The notes beneath the pieces are model-generated. The model made no database searches. It was given only the letters and a program-made list of their open reading frames with translations, and was not told where the DNA came from. The position numbers and the translations under genes are program-made. Of a DNA stretch of 64,000 nt, positions 14,247 to 55,725 are shown piece by piece. Every line of letters begins with the position of its first letter. Position 1 is the first letter of the stretch. The DNA is from Pedosphaera sp. (GTDB taxonomy: Bacteria; Verrucomicrobiota; Verrucomicrobiia; Limisphaerales; SXQI01), in assembly GCA_025359965.1 (NCBI GenBank), contig JANYDC010000017.1, positions 1 through 64,000 of the forward strand. Reading direction: 5' to 3'.

Positions 14247-14842
14247 CAACCGCAACGCGGTTGCGCCTCAGTCCCACACATAGCGTTCGTCGAAGCTGAT
14301 TTCATGCTGTAGCAACAACCTACGCAATTCCTCTTGGAAGGTCAGTTTTTCGTGATGAGCCTTCTGGTTTGCGATGTATGCTTCGACGTCATCCAGATCT
14401 GATGGGCTCACGGAAAAATCTGCATATCCGCCTTGCCACTCAAAGTCAGCGTACTCAGGGGATTGCGCTTTTAGCCAACCATTTGAAACCCGCTTCACCT
14501 CTTTCACCCAGTCCGCCTGTGTAATGGTGCGGCCAAACCGGCACAGCAGGTGAACGTGATCCTCAACCCCTCCGACCAGCAGGGGCGGACATCCGAGTGC
14601 TTTTGAAATACCTCCGAGCTGCGCATGGAGTTTCTCTCTGATGGATTCATCCTGTAGAAATGGACGCCGGTCTTTCGTGGAAAAGACCAAATGGATGTAA
14701 ACGGCAGAAAGGGATTGTGGCATGCAGGCGGAGAGCATATTAGAACCTGGGATAGGTTGTCGATGGGTGGATGAGGGTTGACACTCCGTCAGGGTGGTTT
14801 GTGTTTAAGCGAGCCCTGATGGGCGCAACCGCGTTGCGGTTG
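14247..14842. mobile_element. RAYT gene enclosed by perfect inverted REP palindromes
   Basis: A 20-base element at 14247-14266 and its exact reverse complement at 14823-14842 bracket the transposase gene. Each copy is itself a hairpin, CAACCGC-GTT-GCGGTTG in one orientation (7-bp stem, 3-base loop), the form of a REP sequence. Weaker hairpins flank it further out: AAATCCC-TTT-GGGATTT near 14917 and a GAATCC/GGATTC pair near 14165. The gaps 13961-14246 and 14843-15065 contain only this repeat-like material. RAYT proteins are known to act on REP hairpins, so gene and repeats are probably one unit. Confidence 0.8.
14268..14723 (-). CDS. REP-associated tyrosine transposase (RAYT, Y1 family)
   Basis: 151 residues of the IS200/RAYT HUH-endonuclease fold. 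It has YIHLVFSTKDRRPFL, the metal-binding HUH motif in GGVEDHVHLLCRFG, and the helix with the candidate nucleophilic Tyr in VEAYIANQKAHHEKLTFQEEL, ending ISFDERYVWD. The frame extends five codons further upstream, but MPQSLSAVY at 14723 is the family-like start. Its closest relative in the window is the copy at 45136-45591 (shared TKDRRPFL, GGVEDHVHLL, FDERYVW). The intact reading frame and intact inverted repeats suggest a recently active or maintained unit. Confidence 0.9.
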   Translation of the reverse strand: MPQSLSAVYIHLVFSTKDRRPFLQDESIREKLHAQLGGISKALGCPPLLVGGVEDHVHLLCRFGRTITQADWVKEVKRVSNGWLKAQSPEYADFEWQGGYADFSVSPSDLDDVEAYIANQKAHHEKLTFQEELRRLLLQHEISFDERYVWD

Positions 14843-45135: not shown

Positions 45136-45591
45136 TCATTCCCACACGTAACGTTCGTCGAATTCAACTTTGTATCGTTTCAACAAGCGCCGAAACTCAT
45201 CTTGGAACGAAAATTGGCGATGATGCTCCTCCTGCCCGACGATGTAGGCGCGCACCATTTCGATCTGTGAAAAACCCACCGAAAACACTCCATAACCGGC
45301 TTGCCATGCGAAATCCTGAAATTCTGGCCCCTTGGTTTTGAGCCAGAGTGAGGACCTGCGTTTTACTTCCTTAACCATGACCGAGGCTTCCACAGTCCGA
45401 GATAAAATCGACAACAGATGGACGTGATCTTCCACTCCTCCGACAATGATCGGCTGGCAGTCCAGGTCGGCCAAAATGCCGCCGATGCAGCAATGCAACT
45501 CATCTCGTTCCACAGGGTCGCGCAAGAATGGCCTTCGGTCCTTAGTGGAGAAGACCGTGTGGACAAGAATTTTTGCAAGAGATTGCGCCAC
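45136..45591 (-). CDS. REP-associated tyrosine transposase (second copy)
   Basis: 151 residues, same family as the gene at 14268 but clearly divergent. Motifs: VHTVFSTKDRRPFLRD, HUH in GGVEDHVHLLSILS, candidate Tyr in MVRAYIVGQEEHHRQFSFQDEF, end VEFDERYVWE. GTG start. Related repeats flank it: CTATCCCGAAAGGATTG (45117-45133) and its near reverse complement CAATCCTTTCAGGATAG (45625-45641, 16 of 17 matching). The different repeat sequence from that of the first RAYT suggests each transposase recognises its own REP type. Confidence 0.9.
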   Translation of the reverse strand: MAQSLAKILVHTVFSTKDRRPFLRDPVERDELHCCIGGILADLDCQPIIVGGVEDHVHLLSILSRTVEASVMVKEVKRRSSLWLKTKGPEFQDFAWQAGYGVFSVGFSQIEMVRAYIVGQEEHHRQFSFQDEFRRLLKRYKVEFDERYVWE

Positions 45592-45938
45592 TTTTTAAGA
45601 ATAGTTGGAAATGGGGCGGGGGTTCAATCCTTTCAGGATAGGGAAGATATTGGGGTCGACCCTGGGTAGCACGGTGCGCAACCCAGGGCTGAGTGAGACA
45701 ATCCTTGCAGGATTGGGGATAGGGAGGCCAGAAATGGGGCAAGAGTGTTCTGGTTTATTCTTGTGTCGGTACTCCATACACCCAAAATCGAGTCGCCAAT
45801 TTCCACGTTGGAGTCCAAATCCGGAGATTCCTGAAAGGAATCCTTCATTCAGCCCTGGGTTGCGCACACCGCGCTACCCAGGGTCCACCTACCAATATTT
45901 TTCCTATCCTGAAAGGATTGGTTCATTACGCCCCCCAC
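45592..45938. repeat. REP array forming a large inverted repeat
   Basis: Two arms of about 75 bases, 45625-45690 and 45852-45920, are near-perfect reverse complements. Each holds a CAATCCTTTCAGGATAG unit and a CCCTGGGT...ACCCAGGG hairpin. A third unit, CAATCCTTGCAGGATTG, lies at 45699-45715. No gene is present; several open frames here are by-products of the palindromes. This is a BIME-like cluster next to its probable transposase. Confidence 0.8.
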
Positions 45939-46622
45939 TCACCTCCTCATCAACCGTTTAACTTCGTAGGCTGGGTAAATGAAACGAAAATCCGCACGGT
46001 TCAATTCGATGGGCGAATAATTGGGGTTTTCACTGGTGAGACGGATGCGGGTGCCCTCGGGGCCGGTGCAATGGTACCACTTGAACAGCACTCCCCCGTC
46101 AGCCAAACGCGCCAACACAGCATCGCCATTACGCGGTTCGCTATTGGGCAGGAAGATCACGCGATCACCGGCGAAAAAACGGCCTTCCATGCTGTCTCCC
46201 TCCAAAATCAGGGCAAAGGCATTGGGGTCGCGGCAATCACTTGAGACCTGCTCGTCCAATTGGGCATCAAGATCTTCAAAATCCTTCCCCGTCCCGGCGG
46301 TGGCCCAGCTGATGACTGGCACGGGTTGAAATAACTTAGTGACACGGGGCTCTTCTTTGACGCCTCCGCGCAGATCAATGGAGGGTCTTCTCGGTGATTG
46401 TTGCGACGCCTTGGCTACAAAGGTTTCCATTAAATGCCGCAGTTTAGCGGAGGGAATTTTGTAACCTTTTTCAACAAGCACGTAGTAAGTGCGGTGAATA
46501 TCCAACAAATCAGCAACTTCTTGCTGTGTGTAGCGCAACGACTTACGTGCATTCCGTAAAATTGTTGCATCAAAGCCAACATTTCCAGTTGACTCCACAT
46601 GGGGTGTAGCATTATCGTCCAT
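45939..46622 (-). CDS. S24-family (LexA/CI-like) repressor
   Basis: 227 residues. N-terminal XRE-type helix-turn-helix (RNARKSLRYTQQEVADLLDIHRTYYVLVEKGYKIPSAK, about 23-60, shown as one motif region), linker, then a peptidase S24 domain with Ser144 in GDSMEGRF and Lys181 in VLFKWYH, the self-cleavage dyad. An Ala109-Gly110 bond in SWATAGTG fits the LexA/CI cleavage site. It is divergent from the head-gene row, as expected of a prophage-type repressor inactivated by RecA during DNA damage. The 45-base gap must hold its operators. Confidence 0.92.
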   Translation of the reverse strand: MDDNATPHVESTGNVGFDATILRNARKSLRYTQQEVADLLDIHRTYYVLVEKGYKIPSAKLRHLMETFVAKASQQSPRRPSIDLRGGVKEEPRVTKLFQPVPVISWATAGTGKDFEDLDAQLDEQVSSDCRDPNAFALILEGDSMEGRFFAGDRVIFLPNSEPRNGDAVLARLADGGVLFKWYHCTGPEGTRIRLTSENPNYSPIELNRADFRFIYPAYEVKRLMRR

Positions 46623-46667
46623 ACAACATGAATTAAGTAATCAATGAAACCAAACAGCGTAACATAT

Positions 46668-47486
46668 ATGAAGAATCCGAGCAGTATACAATCAAATTCT
46701 GGCACTCCCGCCTTGGCCGTAGTGGTTCTAGTGGCAGTGGGTTGCACTCATCTGTCCTTGCAACGGTCCGCCCGGAAGCAGGCGTTGGAGGAGGAATCAA
46801 GGGCCTTAACCACGGCGGTCGTTGACACCTTGCAGGCCCAGCCTTTCCCGGTGCGCGATGGATATACCGCCACCGCGCTCCGTTTCGCCCGTCAGGACCA
46901 GCACATCGTGGGGTTGCCCTTGCAGCCTTTCGATGTGCCGGCCCTGCTGGCGGCGGTGACCAATATCGGCTCATCCAACAGTGCCTCCCGCGCAACTATT
47001 GCGGCGGAGGCGTCACTCGCCACGCGTTTTGCCAAACAAGACGCCTTGCTTGGTGAGGTGGCCCGGATCGACGGCCACCTCATGGCACAGGGCGTGAAGC
47101 GCGAGGAGGAACAAAATGCGCGCCGCAAATGGTGGTTCAAAGTGCTGGCGGTTGTGGCGCTGCCGCTCGGCGGCTTGGTGGCGGTCGTGGTGTTTTTCCC
47201 GGTGGCGCTTCCCATTCTGGGACGGCTGCTGGGGGCGGTGGTCAGCCGGCTGCCTCAATTGGCGGGCTGGCTGGGCTTGGTAAGCGTGCGCGCCTTCGAC
47301 AGTTTGGTCCACGGCATCGATCGATGGAAGCAGGCAAACTCCGGCGGTGCGCCGACTGTCGTTGGTGGAAACACCGACGCCAGCCGACGCCCCGACGAGA
47401 GCACAGTGGAGAGTCTCCACACCGCGCTGAGTCGCGAGATGGATTCGGCGGACAAGGCATTGGTCCGCGCCCGCCGGGAAGGCTGA
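46668..47486 (+). CDS. Membrane protein of the phage cassette, unknown
   Basis: 272 residues from the ATG at 46668 (an ATG at 46644 would add eight). N-terminal hydrophobic stretch TPALAVVVLVAVGC, possibly a lipoprotein signal, then a helical region and a second strong membrane segment (WFKVLAVVALPLGGLVAVVVFFPVALP). It is the first gene of the plus-strand head module, between repressor and terminase, a place where early or lysis genes could stand. I do not recognise a family. Confidence 0.62.
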   Translation: MKNPSSIQSNSGTPALAVVVLVAVGCTHLSLQRSARKQALEEESRALTTAVVDTLQAQPFPVRDGYTATALRFARQDQHIVGLPLQPFDVPALLAAVTNIGSSNSASRATIAAEASLATRFAKQDALLGEVARIDGHLMAQGVKREEEQNARRKWWFKVLAVVALPLGGLVAVVVFFPVALPILGRLLGAVVSRLPQLAGWLGLVSVRAFDSLVHGIDRWKQANSGGAPTVVGGNTDASRRPDESTVESLHTALSREMDSADKALVRARREG

Positions 47487-47556
47487 TCTTCCGGCGCGTA
47501 TAAGGCTGCCCCTACTCCTCCTCGCGCCCCCGTGCGCCCATTTCACCCACTTGGTT

Positions 47557-48921
47557 ATGAATTTCTCGTGTATCACCGGCAATCTCTTTGCCTACCAGCG
47601 CCGCTGGCTGGATGACGGCAGCCGACTCAAGATCGGCCTCTGGGCGCGGCAGACCGGCAAGGATTTCACCTGCGCGGCGGAGGCCGTCATGGATATGGCC
47701 ACCCGGCCCAACTCGACTTGGGTGATCTTTGCCGCGAGCGAGCGCCAGGCTCTTGAAAGTCTCGACAAAGCCAAGGAATGGGCTCGCGCCTTGAAAATGA
47801 GCGCCAAGGATACCAAAGTCGAGCGCGACACGCCCTCCGCCATCCTGAAGGCAGCCTCCATTGAGTGGCCCAACGGCTCCCGCATGCTGGCCGTCCCCTC
47901 CAGACCCTCCACCGTTCGCGGATTCTCCGCCAACATGATCCTCACCGAGTTCGCCTTCCACGATGATCCTGCCGCAGTCTGGCGCGCCCTCTACCCCACC
48001 ATCTCCAACCCTCTGAAGGGCGGCGTCAAAAAAATCCGCATCATCAGCACTCCCAATGGACGCGGTAATTTCTTTCACGAGCTGTGGGAATCACCGCGAT
48101 TCGCCAAGCATCGCGTCACGATCCATCAAGCCGTGGCCGAGGGACTTCCCATCGACATTGAGGAGCTGCGCACCGGCCTGAACGATCCCGAGGCTTGGGC
48201 TCAGGAATACGAGTGCGCTTTCATTGACAACGCCAGCACCCTTCTGACCTACGAAGTCATCACCGCCTGCGAGCATGCCAGTGCCACCACCATCAATACT
48301 GAACCTCCCGCTCCGTGCGAACGCGTTCTGGTCGGCATTGATTTCGGGCGCAGCAAAGACCGCACCGTCTGTTGGACACTGGTAGAGCGCGATTCGATCT
48401 GGTGGACCCACGAAGTCCTGGTGCTGGAGAACACTTCGACACCCGATCAACTCGCCATGCTCCGCCCCCGTGTCGCCCGTGCCCATCGCGTTTGTCTGGA
48501 TTCCACGGGGGCGGGCCTTGGCCTTGGTGAATTTCTGGCGCGCGAATTCGGCGAATGGAATGGCGAACCGTTTGCGCCGGGCCGCATCGCTCTCTGCCAT
48601 TTCACGGCCGCGCTAAAGCAGGCCATCTTCGGACGCCTGCGCCCGCTGCTCGAAACCCGCGCTGTGCGCATTCCAATCGACATCGGCATTCGCGAGGATC
48701 TCCATGCTCTCCGCCGAATTCCGCGCCCCGGTGGCGGCATTTCCTACGAGGCTCCGCACGGGCCGGATGGGCACGCCGACCGCACCACCGCTCTCGCTCT
48801 GGCCCTGCACGCCTCGGTGTTGGATTCGCCTGTTGGGCCGCCTCCTCCGCCACGCGCCATCGTGACCATTCCCTCCCGCTTCCGCATGCATCGCGCGCTT
48901 CACCTGCGCGGTTCTTTGTAA
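47557..48921 (+). CDS. Phage terminase large subunit (Mu gp28-like)
   Basis: 454 residues. The packaging motor: ATPase with an atypical Walker A ARQTGKDF (about 31-38), Walker B-like MILTEFAF, coupling ISTPNGRGNFFHELW, and an RNase H-like nuclease beginning VLVGIDFGRSKDRTV with Asp acids, then LDSTGAGLGLGEFLA and HADRTTALALALH. TTG at 47551 is rejected in favour of ATG 47557. The next gene is a Mu-type portal, which supports a Mu gp28 relation. No small terminase is obvious. Confidence 0.88.
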   Translation: MNFSCITGNLFAYQRRWLDDGSRLKIGLWARQTGKDFTCAAEAVMDMATRPNSTWVIFAASERQALESLDKAKEWARALKMSAKDTKVERDTPSAILKAASIEWPNGSRMLAVPSRPSTVRGFSANMILTEFAFHDDPAAVWRALYPTISNPLKGGVKKIRIISTPNGRGNFFHELWESPRFAKHRVTIHQAVAEGLPIDIEELRTGLNDPEAWAQEYECAFIDNASTLLTYEVITACEHASATTINTEPPAPCERVLVGIDFGRSKDRTVCWTLVERDSIWWTHEVLVLENTSTPDQLAMLRPRVARAHRVCLDSTGAGLGLGEFLAREFGEWNGEPFAPGRIALCHFTAALKQAIFGRLRPLLETRAVRIPIDIGIREDLHALRRIPRPGGGISYEAPHGPDGHADRTTALALALHASVLDSPVGPPPPPRAIVTIPSRFRMHRALHLRGSL

Positions 48922-48968
48922 CGCCTCGTCCTTAATTAAACCGTCCCCTTTTAACATTTAGAACCTCC

Positions 48969-51044
48969 ATGAACACCACCTCACACCTAAGCCCCGAACG
49001 CATCAAACGCGCCACACGCTGGCGTTTTCAATCCGTCGCACGCCTCACGCCCGAACGTCTCGCCCAGCAGTTGGACGCGTTCGACAATGGCTGGCTGCGC
49101 GACGCCTCCCTGACCTGGCAAACCATTGAACGACGTGACGACTTGATTCAAGCCGTTGCGCCCAAACGTCGCAAAGCCGTCGCGCGTCATGGCTGGGCCA
49201 TTCTGCCCACGCAGGGGTTGACTGCGGCACAGGCTGCCGAGGCACGGCTCCACACCGAAGCCCTGCAATACTTCTACACGCATCTGACCGCCACCCATGG
49301 TCTCGACGGAGCCGAGCGCGGCGGCTTCAAATTGCTGGTGCGGCAAATGATGCACTCCGTGGGCCATCGTTTCTCCGTGCATGAAGTGTTGTGGCGGCCT
49401 GAATCGGCCACCTCGCGCGGCGCGCAAAACCGCCCACGCTTTCTCACCGCTGATTTTCGTTTTGTGCCGCTCGATTTTTTCGAGAACACCACCGGCACTC
49501 TGCGGTTTCTGGCCGATGAGCGGGCCATGGAAGGCACGCCCTTGGAACCCGGCGCGTGGCTGATCACCACCGGCGAGGGATTGATGCGCGCCACTTCCAT
49601 CGCCTGGATGCTCAAGCAACTGACGCTGAACGATTGGTCCCTTTACTCCGAGCGCCACGGCACGCCCGGTGTGCGCGGCGTCACCACCGCCGCGCGCAAC
49701 TCGGCCGATTGGGATGCCATGGTGGACGCAGTGGCTGAGTTGCTGAACGGCAACGCCATTGTGACCTCCACCACCGAGGATATCAAAGTGATCGATCTGG
49801 CGGCGGGCGGGCAGATGCCTTTTCCTGCACTGGTTGAACGGATGGACCGTGTGATCGCCGCGCTTTGGCGTGGAGCCGATCTTTCCACGCTCAGTCGTGA
49901 GCACGGTTACGGGGCCAGCTTGCAGGAGCGCGAGTCCTGCCTGTTGGAGGAGGATGACACGGAAACCATCTCCGAAACACTCCACCAGCAAATCGACCGT
50001 GAAGTGATTCGTCTGGTTTTTGGCGAAGGCGTGGAACCGCTGGCACGCGTGGAAATCCTAGGCGCCGCCAAGGAATGCACGGACTTTGATTTGAAGATCG
50101 ACTCGTTCTTTTTGGATCATGGTGTGGCCATTGATCCCGAGGCACTGCTGGGACGCTACGGCCGAACCAAACCGCCGACCGTCGCCAACACTCTCGCCGT
50201 GGCAAACTCGCTTGAGGCGGTTCCACCCGACTGGATTCAGCTCTCGCCCTTCGGCGATTTCCGCCACCGTCAGGGGTTGCAGCGGGTGGATCGTGCAGCG
50301 GCCGAGGCCATGAGCACGCAGTTCAAATCCTTCTGGTCGCGGCTGGGACGGGCCTTCGGCGGCCTGCCCTTTTATGTGGGGCATCCCGATGTCCCCGAGC
50401 TGGCCGGTCCGCAGCCTGATCCACGCGCGTATGGATGGATCATGAATCTCGAAGCCCGCAGCGATGGCCTCTACGCGCAAGTCCGCTGGACGGAGGAGGG
50501 CCGGCGCATGATCCAGGACCGGCAGTTCAAATTCTACTCGCCCTACTGGCAGGTCGAGACCATCGGACAGGAGGCGGGCCTCCCGTTGTTCCGGCCGATG
50601 CGCCTGATCTCCGCCGGTTTGACCAATCAACCCAATCTGCCGGTGCTCCCGCTGGCCAACCAATCCACAGCGGTGGGTTTGAGTCCGCAGCCCCAAAGTG
50701 GAATTGCCGATGCGCTCTTTGAGACGGCACTGCTCCACGGCGAGGCGGCTCCGGCTGATGAGAAGATCTTTCGCGAGGCTTGCGATTCAGGGGCATTGGC
50801 CAATCGCATCTCCGCGCCTGGTCGCACTCCCCGGCGCTTCCGCACCGTCGAACATTCCCAAACACGTCGGCTTAACGAATCGCGCCGCGCACGCGCTCTT
50901 GGCGGAACCCGCTCGCTGGCTCGCGAAAGACTCGATGCGCTTCTGGATGCCAAGACCATCGCCGGTATTCCCTTCGAACAGGCCTGGGCGCTGGTGAAAA
51001 CAGAAGCCCCCGAACTCTTCGCGCAACTCGAACAACCCCGCTGA
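48969..51044 (+). CDS. Fusion: DUF935 portal protein + Mu I-like scaffold protease
   Basis: 691 residues, longer than Mu gp29 (about 510). Residues 1-400 follow the DUF935 portal pattern (TWQTIERRDDLIQAVAPKRRKAVARHGW; KLLVRQMMHSVGHRFSVHEVLW; GLMRATSIAWMLKQLTLNDWSLYSERHGTPGVRG). From about 425 the sequence becomes protease-like, as Mu gpI: WIQLSPFGDFRHR, PFYVGHPDVPELAGP, AYGWIMNLEARSDGLYAQVRWTEEGRRMI, FKFYSPYW, LISAGLTNQPNLPV. The tail is basic. In Mu the two are separate genes. The fused order fits co-assembly of portal and procapsid protease. Confidence 0.85.
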   Translation: MNTTSHLSPERIKRATRWRFQSVARLTPERLAQQLDAFDNGWLRDASLTWQTIERRDDLIQAVAPKRRKAVARHGWAILPTQGLTAAQAAEARLHTEALQYFYTHLTATHGLDGAERGGFKLLVRQMMHSVGHRFSVHEVLWRPESATSRGAQNRPRFLTADFRFVPLDFFENTTGTLRFLADERAMEGTPLEPGAWLITTGEGLMRATSIAWMLKQLTLNDWSLYSERHGTPGVRGVTTAARNSADWDAMVDAVAELLNGNAIVTSTTEDIKVIDLAAGGQMPFPALVERMDRVIAALWRGADLSTLSREHGYGASLQERESCLLEEDDTETISETLHQQIDREVIRLVFGEGVEPLARVEILGAAKECTDFDLKIDSFFLDHGVAIDPEALLGRYGRTKPPTVANTLAVANSLEAVPPDWIQLSPFGDFRHRQGLQRVDRAAAEAMSTQFKSFWSRLGRAFGGLPFYVGHPDVPELAGPQPDPRAYGWIMNLEARSDGLYAQVRWTEEGRRMIQDRQFKFYSPYWQVETIGQEAGLPLFRPMRLISAGLTNQPNLPVLPLANQSTAVGLSPQPQSGIADALFETALLHGEAAPADEKIFREACDSGALANRISAPGRTPRRFRTVEHSQTRRLNESRRARALGGTRSLARERLDALLDAKTIAGIPFEQAWALVKTEAPELFAQLEQPR

Positions 51045-51112
51045 ATTTTTGGTGCGGTACGCCGAGTCCAGGGCGCACAGCACTTCACTCAAACCATGGA
51101 CATTTCCCACCT

Positions 51113-51610
51113 ATGAAAACCAAACCCATCCGCAGGGCTTTCAACGCCCTGCTCCACGAACTCAAACGCCGCCATTTCGCGGCACAACGCCGCAACCGGG
51201 CCTTCCGTCTGGCCAACATTGCGGAAGGCACCCACGAGGGCAATATCACCAAGACAACGGACGTCGTTATCGGCGAACGCTTCCTGCTGGCCAAAATCGG
51301 CAGCGCGGCGGATCGCGTGAACATCTGCACCGCCGTCGATAATCCCATCGGCGTCATCACCGACGAAGCCGCAGCCGTATTCGACCTTGTCAACGTGGCT
51401 TTGCTCGGTTCCATCGGGACCACCGTGCGCATGGTGGCCTCGGCCGCGATCACACAGGGCTCGCTGCTTGAACCCGCCGCGGCGGGCCGCGTGGCAACGC
51501 TCGGCGGTTCCGTCGGAACTCACTATGTGGTCGGTCGCGCTCTGGATGCGGCCGCCGCCGCAGGCGATGTGATCGAAGTCGATCCGCTCTACTTCCTGCG
51601 CGTCATCTAA
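51113..51610 (+). CDS. Putative capsid decoration/cement protein (DUF2190-like)
   Basis: 165 residues. A basic N-terminus is followed by a beta-rich domain: IAEGTHEGNITKTTDVVIGERFLLAKIGSAADRV, VDNPIGVITDEAA, SAAITQGSLLEPAAAGRVATL, VIEVDPLYFLRV. This is the pattern of small head-stabilising proteins between protease and major capsid genes. Position and pattern both support the call; no sequence search was made. Confidence 0.68.
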   Translation: MKTKPIRRAFNALLHELKRRHFAAQRRNRAFRLANIAEGTHEGNITKTTDVVIGERFLLAKIGSAADRVNICTAVDNPIGVITDEAAAVFDLVNVALLGSIGTTVRMVASAAITQGSLLEPAAAGRVATLGGSVGTHYVVGRALDAAAAAGDVIEVDPLYFLRVI

Positions 51611-51634
51611 AACTCAACTCGAAACAAGAATCCC

Positions 51635-52651
51635 ATGAACACAGAAAACATCGATATGCAAAACAACAACTCCTCACCCATCGCGGCTTTCCGGTCTGAC
51701 GAACGCCTCGCGCTGGACAATGGTCGCCCCGACCCGGGCCAGCTGGTTCTGGCCAACGAAGCGCGTTTCAACGCCTCGTTCTATTCCGAGCCTCTCACCG
51801 CCTACGCCGTGGGCTGGCGTGATCAAAACGAAATCGAGAAAACCCTCGATTTTCTTGCCCCACCGGTCCAGGCCGGTCGCCGCTATGAGTTCAAGAAATC
51901 GGATAACACCGAGGCTTTCTATTCAGAAACCGATGACTTGCGGGCCATCGGCGCGGATTTCAAACGCGTCGAGTACAAGGGCATAACCCAGCTCGACAAA
52001 ACCCTGAACAAAGGGCTGACCCTCCGCGTCGATCTCGATCAGATCGACAGCATGGTTAATTGGCGCGAGGTTTTCACCGCCCGCCTGCTCCAACGTCTCC
52101 TCCGCAACGAACTGCGCCGCGCGATCACTCTCATCGCCGGCGTAGCCACGAACACCGCCAAAACATGGGACACCACTGTCGGTCGCGATCCTGACCAGGA
52201 TGTGCTGACCGATCTCATCGCCGCTGTGGATGATTCGGGCGTGCGACCCAACCGCCTGTTGTACGGTGATGTGGCGTGGAACAAGCGCCTCATCGCCCAT
52301 CGCGCCCAGGCCTCGGCGGGCGGTTATGCCTCGGCCGGATTGACCACGGGCGAACTGGCCGGGTTCATGGGAGTCGACGGCGTGCGGGTCTCGCGCGAGC
52401 GTTTTCAATCCACCGCTGTACTCAAAGGCAAAGTCGTGCCGGACGTTGTTCTGGAATTCTTTGCCGAGGACGGCGTGGGCCCGGATGATCCCAGCCACGC
52501 CAAACGCTTCTGGACCGCGGTCGAGGGCGGCGGCAAATACCGCGTCTACGAGCAGCAAATGAGTGCCAAACTCATCGACCTCACCGTCGAGCATTACAGC
52601 AACGTGTCGGTGACCTCCACCCTCGGCCTGCGCAAACTCACCATCAGCTAA
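51635..52651 (+). CDS. Phage major capsid protein
   Basis: 338 residues in the right place (after portal/protease and decoration genes). Sequence has coat-like features: DPGQLVLANEARFNASFYSEPLTAYAVGW, a P-domain-like region with GRRYEFKKSDNTEAFY, and the long helix EVFTARLLQRLLRNELRRAITLIAGV. HK97-type fold is inferred. The start could also be at the second Met (MQNNNSS). Confidence 0.75.
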   Translation: MNTENIDMQNNNSSPIAAFRSDERLALDNGRPDPGQLVLANEARFNASFYSEPLTAYAVGWRDQNEIEKTLDFLAPPVQAGRRYEFKKSDNTEAFYSETDDLRAIGADFKRVEYKGITQLDKTLNKGLTLRVDLDQIDSMVNWREVFTARLLQRLLRNELRRAITLIAGVATNTAKTWDTTVGRDPDQDVLTDLIAAVDDSGVRPNRLLYGDVAWNKRLIAHRAQASAGGYASAGLTTGELAGFMGVDGVRVSRERFQSTAVLKGKVVPDVVLEFFAEDGVGPDDPSHAKRFWTAVEGGGKYRVYEQQMSAKLIDLTVEHYSNVSVTSTLGLRKLTIS

Positions 52652-52723
52652 ACCCACCCGCCACGACGACCGGGGTTGCCTCAATCAACTCCGGCCGTCG
52701 TTGCGGTTTTCAATTTTTACCTT

Positions 52724-53545
52724 ATGAAACTGATTTCCCAACTCAACCGAATCCCCACCAAACTTTACAACCCCGAGACCCTGCTCTACCGCGACCGCGT
52801 CATTGCCAACAGCGGCACCATTTCCGATGCCTCGCTTGATGCCGTCGAGAAATTTGTGCAGGACTGCAAGAACGCCATGGTCTGGGACAAGCTTCTCGAA
52901 GTCGGCGTGTTTGCCGGCAACAACCTCAACGCCGCCCTGACCAAACTGGTGGTCGGCCCCGGCGCGCCCACCGCACTCACCAACGTCAATTTCGTCGGCG
53001 GCGATTACGCCGAGACGGGATCATCCGGCGGACTCAACGGCGATGGCGCCACCAAGTATCTGAACACTGGGTTCTCCGGCACCAATCTCCCCGACACCGC
53101 GCACCTCAGCGCGTACCTGCGCGATGACGTGGTGGCGGCGGGCAATCGCTCGCTTCTAGGCACGCTCACCGGCACGGACCAGTTTTGGATGGGCGGACTG
53201 AACGCGGCGGCCACAGTGGACTTCCGCTATGGCCAGCTCAACGGCACTACCCTGCTGACCGGTTTGGTCAAGGGGTTCTGGTGTGGAGTCCGCGTAAGCT
53301 CCAGCATTCTGCGTCTCTTCCGCAACGGGACCTACGCCGATCTCAACAGCAGCGCCACCACCCTCGTGAAACCGGCAGGGAACGTTTTTATCCACGCTTA
53401 CAATTTATCCGGTTCGCCAGGCGGTTATACCCCGGGCCGCATCTCCTTCTACAGCATTGGAAACGCCATGAGCGATCCCGATGTCCTGGCCTTCCACCTC
53501 GCCGTCCGCACCCTTCAATACAACCTCAACCGTGGCATCAACTAA
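52724..53545 (+). CDS. LamG-like structural protein of the cassette
   Basis: 273 residues. The N-terminal 80 residues are helical (ASLDAVEKFVQDCKNAMVWDKLLEVGVFAG); residues about 90-273 look like a concanavalin/LamG beta-sandwich (FVGGDYAETGSSGGLNGDGATKYLNTGF; HLSAYLRDDVVAAGNRSLLGT; GRISFYSIG). Such domains occur on phage surface or receptor-binding proteins. Start: ATG 52724, since upstream codons are not conserved-looking. It stands 73 bases after the capsid gene. Confidence 0.65.
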   Translation: MKLISQLNRIPTKLYNPETLLYRDRVIANSGTISDASLDAVEKFVQDCKNAMVWDKLLEVGVFAGNNLNAALTKLVVGPGAPTALTNVNFVGGDYAETGSSGGLNGDGATKYLNTGFSGTNLPDTAHLSAYLRDDVVAAGNRSLLGTLTGTDQFWMGGLNAAATVDFRYGQLNGTTLLTGLVKGFWCGVRVSSSILRLFRNGTYADLNSSATTLVKPAGNVFIHAYNLSGSPGGYTPGRISFYSIGNAMSDPDVLAFHLAVRTLQYNLNRGIN

Positions 53546-53546
53546 C

Positions 53547-53852
53547 ATGAAAATCCTTATTCTCAAACCCTCCGCGCTGACCACCCTCGACGCCAAAAAC
53601 ACTGCCGAAACCAAGAACCAACTCCTCCACCCCGGCACGCTCAAAACCGGCGAATCCTTCCTAAACGCCGACCTCCTCAGCGACTGCAACCCCGGCCAAA
53701 CCTGGGAACATTACCACGACCTCATCACGGCCGCCGAAGTGCGGGACATCACCGACAAAGACCTCCGCAAAGGCCCGCAATTCACCAAACAAGGAATCCA
53801 AACCGAGGTGGAATTTGATGCGGCTGTTGCGCAGGCGAAAGAAAGCGCCTGA
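53547..53852 (+). CDS. Small protein ending the head module, unknown
   Basis: 101 residues, start two bases after the LamG-like stop, so co-translated. Sequence MKILILKPSALTTLD and HPGTLKTGESFLNADLLSD; hydrophilic, no membrane segment. A head completion or accessory role is guessed from position only. Confidence 0.6.
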   Translation: MKILILKPSALTTLDAKNTAETKNQLLHPGTLKTGESFLNADLLSDCNPGQTWEHYHDLITAAEVRDITDKDLRKGPQFTKQGIQTEVEFDAAVAQAKESA

Positions 53853-53856
53853 TGAT

Positions 53857-54151
53857 TCGCGAAGCGTCTTGGAACGGAGCCCCTTCCGGGCCATCCCGGA
53901 GGGATGCCAGCTGGTAGCCGGGGGTCGCGTGAGGAACGAACGCTACCCCCGGTAGGCCGGTTAAATAATAACGATCCTGAAGGGATCGCAGACATCCTAC
54001 ATCCGGGATGGCACCCCTAACCTGCGACCCTTTCAGGGTCGAATTTTTTGCGTACCTGTTCCGGTGGTGTCGTCGCTCCGCTCCTTACTCACCGGCTAAT
54101 GGCTTCCAAGCCTCCAGCTTGGAAAACTTCAAACTTCAAACTTCAAACTTG
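53857..54151. repeat. Repeat cluster downstream of the head module
   Basis: Contains TCGCGAAGCGTCTTGGA (also at 39778-39794), a hairpin CCGGGGGT (53919-53926) with ACCCCCGG (53945-53952), a GATCC-TGAA-GGGATC palindrome, and four tandem copies of AAACTTC/G at 54124-54151. No gene is present between 53853 and 54226. It mirrors the REP array on the far side of the cassette, but with a different repeat type. Confidence 0.65.
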
Positions 54152-54226
54152 TAGCTTAACACGCCCAACCCCACCAAACTTGCCTCCCACCCCCGCGCTT
54201 TGGTTGAATTTCGACCTCAGGCCAAT

Positions 54227-54622
54227 ATGAACACCGAAATCATCGCCTCCACCACTCGCGCCACCCTGGCGGGCACCATCTCCTTCCCCGACGTCGTCGC
54301 CGCCCTTATCGCCACCGGCGTGGAATATTATCACGTCGATTATGCCGCCCTGCGCATTACTTTTTACAACGGCGATGGTGCCGCCATCGTCATGCCCATC
54401 CTCTACGAAGGCCTCCCACCCATAGCTCCCGATTTCCAACCTGATAATTTAAAAGCCGCCATTCTGGACAGCCAATGTCACGGACAAAAATTCCGCGACT
54501 TCACCCACCGAGCCATGTCCGCCGGCGTGCAAAGTTACACCGCCTTCCTACGAGGCCAACGCGTCACCTATTTTGCCGGACCGGCGACCAATACACCGAA
54601 TGGTTTCCAAGCGCTGCACTAA
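54227..54622 (+). CDS. DUF1398 (YbcV-like) protein
   Basis: 131 residues: RATLAGTISFPDVVAALIATGVEYYHVDYAALRITFYNGDG is the family's N-terminal pattern, followed by DNLKAAILDSQ and FTHRAMSAGVQSYTAFLRGQRVTYFA. The E. coli relative YbcV sits in a prophage; its function is not known. ATG at 54227 chosen. Confidence 0.8.
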   Translation: MNTEIIASTTRATLAGTISFPDVVAALIATGVEYYHVDYAALRITFYNGDGAAIVMPILYEGLPPIAPDFQPDNLKAAILDSQCHGQKFRDFTHRAMSAGVQSYTAFLRGQRVTYFAGPATNTPNGFQALH

Positions 54623-54720: not shown

Positions 54721-55725
54721 ATGCACAAGAATGAAACCTGTTTCGTCATCATGCCGTTCAGCGAAACAAACCATTCCATTGGTACCACCGACGTTGTTTT
54801 GATGAAGCGTGATTGGGATCACATTTATGAGAAATGGATCAAACGTGCTGTGGAGTCCTTCTCTGAGAAACGAATTGAATGCAAGCGCTCACCAGCTCAA
54901 CCGGGAAGTTTTGTCCGGGGAATTGTGAATGATCTGGCTGAGTCGTCGCTAGTAATAGCAGATCTCACAGGAGGACGACCTAATGTCTACTACGAACTTG
55001 GTGTCCGCCACGCCCTGCGAACGGGCACTATCATAATAACCCAACACCTGTCTGCATTACCTTCTGACCTGCATGGCTATTACGCCTTCGAGTATCGATT
55101 CACTGAAAGGAGCACGGATTACGAAGATGCTTATTTCGAATTTGAGAAAAACTTGCATGACAAAATCCTTTCCATTTTCTCCGCGAGAGTCACATCTGAT
55201 AGCCCTGTCAGCGACTTCCTAGGCCTGCGCCACCAGCTATTGCTTAAGTCAATGGAAGAAGAGAAAAATGAGTTGGTCTGGACTTTAAATGTCTGCGGGA
55301 AGGTCCTCGAAGAGAATTTCCGGACTGCTGAATGGATATGGAGGTCAGCATCATCCAAAAAGCCGGGTAAGATAGAGAACATGTTGGTCTTCGATACGGC
55401 GGCGCTTGACATTGCATATGCTCGACTGCTGAACAGAGCCTGGCGGTGTTTACCTGAACCCCTTCTCAACAACCTAATGGAAGTTCTCAATCAGGACCGA
55501 CGAATGTTCCAGTCACTCAATCAGTATATGACTGTTCTGATGATAAACTTGTCAGGGCATTTTAGTGATTCATTCTTTGCGTTTCTAGAACATGCAGTCG
55601 AACGCCATGCGACCTTCAAGAAAAAGTGGCCTAAATTGATTGAAAGCGCAAATTCAATATGTCCTCAAATCATTGCGGAGCCAGATGTAAGCGTTCAAAA
55701 GCGGAAACGTGCCCGAAGAGGCTGA
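54721..55725 (+). CDS. TIR / nucleoside-deoxyribosyltransferase-like protein
   Basis: 334 residues in two parts. Residues 1-about 135 form the TIR-like/NDT-like Rossmann domain: ETCFVIMPFSE, DWDHIYEKWIKRAVESF, RGIVNDLAESSLVIADLTGGRPNVYYELGVRHAL, TIIITQ. The Glu in YYELG is where NDT and TIR enzymes have their catalytic acid, and related domains cleave NAD or nucleotides in defence systems. Residues 170-334 are helical and unrecognised. It stands alone with TTGACG upstream and has clearly lower GC than the phage genes before it, which suggests separate acquisition. Regulatory or sensing partners are not visible next to it. Confidence 0.72.
   Translation: MHKNETCFVIMPFSETNHSIGTTDVVLMKRDWDHIYEKWIKRAVESFSEKRIECKRSPAQPGSFVRGIVNDLAESSLVIADLTGGRPNVYYELGVRHALRTGTIIITQHLSALPSDLHGYYAFEYRFTERSTDYEDAYFEFEKNLHDKILSIFSARVTSDSPVSDFLGLRHQLLLKSMEEEKNELVWTLNVCGKVLEENFRTAEWIWRSASSKKPGKIENMLVFDTAALDIAYARLLNRAWRCLPEPLLNNLMEVLNQDRRMFQSLNQYMTVLMINLSGHFSDSFFAFLEHAVERHATFKKKWPKLIESANSICPQIIAEPDVSVQKRKRARRG

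Follow-up and report, generated by a model that had tools for sequence, protein, structure and literature searches.

A tail-less phage head and DNA-packaging cassette of probable Mu-like origin in a Pedosphaera genome, and its relatives in Verrucomicrobiota

An 8-kb cassette in a draft genome of Pedosphaera sp. encodes a phage head and its packaging motor beside a divergently transcribed S24 repressor, with no tail genes found at the locus. The cassette occupies positions 45939-53852 of the window, by which we mean the whole stretch of DNA analysed, positions 1-64000 of a contig that runs to 66250 in a 5.14-Mb assembly of 162 contigs (G000). Tentatively, and at close to an even chance, we read it as a derepressible, tail-less DNA-packaging head resembling a gene transfer agent (GTA) and taken from the head half of a Mu-like phage.

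Results

Gene content of the cassette

All reading frames of the cassette were intact in an open-frame check of 45939-53852. The following features were assigned by profile searches (Pfam, PHROG), structure prediction or inspection of the sequence.

45939-46622, minus strand: HTH and S24 autoprotease repressor, CI/LexA-like (Peptidase_S24 8e-18, HTH_3 3.5e-7; Pfam/PHROG)
46644-47486, plus strand: P2, predicted lipoprotein with a C-terminal membrane segment (from the sequence)
47551-48921, plus strand: TerL, terminase large subunit (Terminase_6N 6e-15, phrog_2 3e-44)
48969-51044, plus strand: fused Mu-type portal and Mu-like head maturation protease, 691 aa in a single frame (Portal_Mu 9e-47, Mu-like_Pro 1.5e-17)
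51113-51610, plus strand: decoration/cement-like head protein (phrog_673 1e-14; Pfam cement family slightly below the cut-off)
51635-52651, plus strand: major capsid protein, HK97 fold (phrog_1005 6.5e-6; AlphaFold2/Foldseek)
52676-53545, plus strand: protein matching phrog_17104, a PHROG of unknown function; start ATG probably at 52724
53481-53852, plus strand: P8, small protein (open frame); start ATG probably at 53547

The profile matches bear out the initial annotation of this DNA in placing an S24 repressor divergent from a row of head genes and, together with the HK97 fold, in naming the terminase, portal-protease, decoration and major capsid proteins. The AlphaFold2 model of the capsid protein had a mean pLDDT of 71, and its best Foldseek match in the PDB was 3bjq (E 5.5e-13). 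The label 'LamG-like' given to the protein at 52676-53545 was dropped, as no Pfam or PDB match was obtained and phrog_17104 was its only hit; a single-sequence fold of this protein (pLDDT 36) was unusable and was discarded. P2 had no convincing family match in Pfam or PHROG and no relative in the fetched loci; judged from position alone, its role would be of lysis type. P8 gave no family match at E < 0.04 in the same two collections.

In TerL the ATPase motif RQxG, Glu133 and the nuclease residues Asp 264, 317 and 410 are all intact, and they are invariant in 12 homologues that include the solitary genes of family f33 described below. In the fusion protein the portal spans approximately residues 1-400 and the protease approximately residues 405-691. 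Portal and protease were separate genes in all 31 relatives tabulated, whereas in the window they are joined in frame, which could be a deletion scar. Read directly, the repressor contains the Ser in GDSM, the Lys in GVLFKWY and the Ala-Gly site in TAGT, this Ser and Lys being the pair expected of S24 self-cleavage. Its nearest relative among the loci read was the repressor beside TerS-TerL in genome G215 (3.9e-31). The window yielded no TerS, no gp36-type connector and nothing recognisable as a lysis gene, and Pfam, PHROG and a 72-query tblastn set detected no integrase, AlpA, primase, HNH or replication gene at or near the cassette.

Flanking sequences

Three features adjoin the cassette.

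45136-45591, minus strand: Y1 (IS200/RAYT-type) transposase (Pfam Y1_Tnp 4.7e-21), abutting the left repeats
45592-45938, unstranded: left REP-like inverted-repeat cluster, arms 45674-45712/45829-45867 (85%) and 45625-45653/45892-45920 (93%)
53857-54151, unstranded: right repeat cluster, differing in sequence from the left, with a terminator-like hairpin at 54025-54041

Tail, integrase, replication and transposase genes had all been reported as absent from this neighbourhood. We likewise found none of the first three, but the Y1 gene is a transposase, although it is probably unrelated to the cassette. The repeat clusters reported on both sides are present but show no sign of marking the borders of an element: the left one is of REP/RAYT type, the right one is unlike it, and since no direct repeat of at least 10 bases is common to both flanks, neither an attachment site nor a target duplication was found at the borders. 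An empty-site search through the PhoH gene of the left flank gave only domain matches of 43-44% in G001 and G002, and the contig of G004 ended after 6 kb.

Several other genes of this genome were recorded. A second protein resembling a Y1 (RAYT-type) transposase, with motifs in common, is encoded at 14268-14738, and REP/RAYT elements may be common in the genome. Just downstream of the cassette, 54721-55725 encodes a TIR-like effector-type protein (PADLOC PDLC00733 1.4e-10; phrog_3634 1.3e-15), possibly a defence gene, and a DUF1398 protein (Pfam 1e-7) is encoded between the two at 54200-54622. Two other prophage loci were present, on contigs C87 (L027, 1-20000) and C149 (L028, 1-15000). The former has tail and tape-measure-like genes and the latter is of Mu type and cut by the contig end; both are possible tail donors.

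Absence of tail genes and relation to Mu-like phages

The 72 tblastn queries included gp36, MuF, gpG, gp37, gp38, tube-like, baseplate-like and tape-measure proteins taken from related phages. The positive control consisted of 62 IMG/VR loci encoding a related capsid, 59 of which were informative (at least 1.9 kb past the capsid gene); these loci were obtained by an alignment search, a single-protein capsid search of IMG/VR and phage records having found none. A tail or morphogenesis query matched in 58 of the 59 informative loci, nearly always just downstream of the capsid gene. The sole such match was an upstream gpG-like gene in L203 and L245 and gp36 in L204. None of the tail queries matched in the window, despite 11 kb of sequence 3' of the capsid gene, and since identical queries detected tails in the control this absence is not a simple failure of sensitivity. 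The locus is without tail genes, and tails supplied in trans are conceivable.

Among the 384 genomes sampled from the class, 48 carry portal/protease homologues, and full Mu-like phages of the class share the gene order TerL-portal-protease-decoration-capsid with the window (IMG/VR L199 and L202; chromosomal L068 and L069). Their closest capsids are 58-61% identical to that of the window, and L068 also has an S24-type repressor. Unlike the window, these phages go on with gp36, MuF, gpG, gp37, tube and baseplate-type genes; they mostly have longer portals, and L069 has a MuA-like gene. The genes of a complete Mu-like prophage (MuA/MuB, tail and lysis genes) were not found at the window locus. 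The type of portal, protease and TerL, together with gp27/gp36-type neighbours in relatives, supports the derivation of the cassette from a Mu-like verrucomicrobial phage, an origin that had already been proposed.

In several Mu-like verrucomicrobial phages, Dam-type-looking DNA methyltransferases are encoded near capsid, gp36 and MuF genes.

L071, 14411-15241: Dam-type-looking methyltransferase
L076, 4339-5250: Dam-type-looking methyltransferase
L113, 4057-4953: Dam-type-looking methyltransferase
L139, 13425-14237: Dam-type-looking methyltransferase

The last of these loci (G396:C1:17000-36900) is a Mu-like phage that has genes resembling MuF and gpG, and the same genome carries a dispersed reduced module (L075, L138).

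Tail-less and reduced copies in other genomes

When related Verrucomicrobiota were searched for the same gene row, as had been suggested, a tail-less set was found in genome G002, family f86 and genus g34. The genomes compared were mostly drafts, and the gene calls of the fetched loci come from a simple script rather than from a trained gene finder. In the window's genus the module was present in two of four genomes (G000 and G002), at different sites. The decoration and capsid proteins of G002 are 67% and 81% identical to those of the window and are followed by ordinary chromosomal genes, with no tail; the contig ends inside the protease gene, and TerL and the repressor lie outside the visible stretch. 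A core-gene comparison of G000 with about 800 kb of G002 gave a single near full-length match (71%) and was unusable as a clock. The undamaged frames had been taken to speak against decay, which is fair for the window itself, but genome G004 of the same family contained only broken fragments, for example a 114-aa protease.

Family f86 carried one capsid copy each in 9 of 10 genomes, covering three of its four genera. A CorA transporter gene lay near the module in seven of the eight copies of the main two genera, g137 and g172 (the G633 stretch shows none), and in the complete genome G374 the module sits between folate-biosynthesis and rlmN-like genes. The gene row stops right after the capsid gene in G371, G630 and G631; other copies retain a LamG-type fibre gene together with gp36. 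In genus g34 (family f33, of the window's order) the set is dispersed, with decoration and capsid genes in 6/6 genomes, portal and protease genes at a second locus in 5/6 and a solitary TerL gene at a third, also in 5/6. Next to the decoration and capsid genes lies a holin-like gene (phrog_1129, E 0.0013 in L104).

Tails are reduced in families f93 and f84. Family f93, with TerL at a separate locus, was rejected as tail-less and called reduced, as gp36, gp37 and a baseplate-like gene are still present. Genome G215 (family f85, in which the capsid occurs in only 2 of 40 genomes) was also rejected, having gp37-, tube- and baseplate-like genes. Unlinked tail genes of f86 and f33 were sought with one tape-measure family, PF10145, in a search of 25 genomes, and weak matches were obtained in f86; those inspected, in G166, G209 and G374, sit in ordinary prophages away from the module and were rejected as its tails. 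Four identical-scoring tape-measure-like matches in G374:C1, at 4487448 (L146), 4523168, 4558888 and 4594608, are spaced exactly 35,720 bases apart, either a tandem array of four prophage copies or an assembly artefact.

The f86 loci also share conserved small proteins (S1/S2) that are probably secreted; they are encoded divergently from TerL and have no family match.

L067, 12987-13826: S1/S2 protein
L061, 12834-13277: S1/S2 protein
L066, 7919-8296: S1/S2 protein
L100, 4756-5169: S1/S2 protein

Selection, capsid trees and portal length

Pairwise NG86 estimates of dN/dS indicated purifying selection on the capsid genes. The ratio was 0.04-0.2 in f86 (example pair: dN 0.015, dS 0.39) and about 0.04 for close pairs in g34. 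Between the window and G002, dN and dS were 0.162 and 1.31 for the capsid (dN/dS about 0.12) and 0.253 and 1.44 for the decoration protein (about 0.18); single ratios are rough because dS often approaches or exceeds 1, and the close pairs carry the argument. Selection between the window and G002 could partly predate tail loss, that is, date from phage life. The f33 genes, split from their partners, are hardly selectable as phage genes, so that selection there points to a use at the level of the cell.

Capsid trees built with and without IMG/VR phages placed tail-less copies in at least three positions (window with G002, g34, and f86), the window and G002 capsids being sisters with support of 100/99. 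The C-terminus of portals generally faces the capsid interior, where a maturation protease would act. It is shortened in tail-less or reduced loci, with 48-90 residues past an anchor as compared with 65-299 residues (median about 170) in phage-like loci, a comparison in which related sequences are not independent, so no weight is given to its p-value.

Discussion

On the reading that we favour, a Mu-like transposable phage would have been stripped of transposase, connector and tail genes, and its head-and-packaging half would have been kept as a repressible unit. The S24 repressor would keep the divergent operon off, and RecA-stimulated self-cleavage upon DNA damage would release it. The capsid, decoration and portal proteins would then assemble into tail-less, portal-bearing HK97-type heads, with the protease on the inward-facing C-terminal end of the portal maturing the shell. 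TerL would pump DNA into these heads, and because no packaging-specificity subunit was found, host DNA would be the likeliest cargo. From the genes we infer induction, assembly, packaging, cargo and release, as well as a benefit to the cell.

Domestication of the head set is likely in the f86 and f33 lineages, given its lineage-wide retention, its dispersal to two or three loci and the low capsid dN/dS. For these other families the idea of a domesticated encapsulation module, raised when the cassette was first described, is strongly supported. For the window copy it is plausible, at about even chances, and the case is weaker because the module is patchy in the genus, decayed fragments occur in the same family and no TerS was found.

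GTAs are distinguished by phage-derived proteins, packaging of host DNA, often several loci and mostly vertical inheritance (PMC9662315). Their host DNA cargo is mostly random, and their small heads do not take up the full set of their own genes. GTAs and viriforms such as RcGTA, BaGTA and BhGTA have phage-derived head and packaging genes, as the cassette does (PMC9662315). The window's relatives resemble them in occupying several loci and in being lineage-wide, single-copy and under purifying selection, whereas in the window the genes form a single 8-kb locus with a patchy distribution. One GTA trait is present, structural proteins derived from Caudoviricetes. A second, endogenisation with mostly vertical inheritance, may apply to the relatives, judging from lineage-wide distribution in f86 and g34 (three loci in g34; patchy for the window). 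A tailed virion-like particle is not encoded at the locus; characterised GTAs are described as tailed, apart from some reports of tail-less Bartonella particles, and generally deliver their DNA through the tail, whereas here no tail gene stands beside the head genes. Encapsulins likewise are cell-encoded shells of HK97 fold, but the window keeps terminase, portal, protease and decoration genes, and its structural match to encapsulins is weaker than that to phage capsids.

The rival that weighs most is a Mu-like prophage remnant in which tail, transposase and lysis genes were deleted and decay has yet to reach the head genes, leaving no present function; we hold this possible, though doubtful. 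The patchy distribution in the genus, the fragments in G004, the lack of detectable TerS and gp36, the portal-protease fusion, absent from the 31 tabulated relatives, and the adjoining Y1 transposase would all fit it. It accounts poorly for the intact frames and TerL catalytic residues, and for the survival of the head rather than the tail half in three separate lineages, two of them lineage-wide with selected capsids. The tail-less G002 copy also speaks against a remnant through its similar capsid and low dN/dS, with the reservation that this selection could date from phage life. We think it improbable that the cassette is a capsid-forming satellite, as had been suggested, building its own heads and using the tails of a phage that resides in the cell or infects it. 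Capsid-forming PICIs and Streptomyces satellites have their own capsid, portal, protease and TerL and no tail (PMC10690885), a content that the window overlaps, and the cassette has its own repressor and two prophage loci in the same genome. In addition the PICIs encode TerS, HNH and connector proteins, and an integrase is usual in satellites (PMC10690885); none of these, nor AlpA, primase, a replication gene or attachment repeats, was found with the cassette, and the relatives hold the same genes at two or three unlinked loci, which therefore cannot move as one element. The window is filed neither as a GTA nor as a capsid-forming PICI. Slightest of all is the prospect of an anti-phage use, in which the head proteins would co-assemble or compete with those of infecting Mu-like phages as dominant-negative partners or decoys. 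The class harbours many related Mu-like phages and the TIR-like gene lies next door, but the retention of TerL with its catalytic residues, portal and protease is more than a decoy requires.

A literature search, with most subscription journals outside its coverage, found no description of modules like these from Verrucomicrobiota. Possibly, and we put this forward tentatively, domesticated tail-less heads that package DNA form a class of their own in use among Verrucomicrobiota; they would be heads that arose several times from Mu-like phages and were kept by vertical inheritance even after scattering over the chromosome, the window being a repressor-controlled version with fused portal and protease. 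A tail-less head and its motor, kept by selection in several lineages even when spread over three loci, raises the question of what the cell gains from a capsid with no evident injection route; it may serve DNA transfer by some other way, DNA removal or defence.
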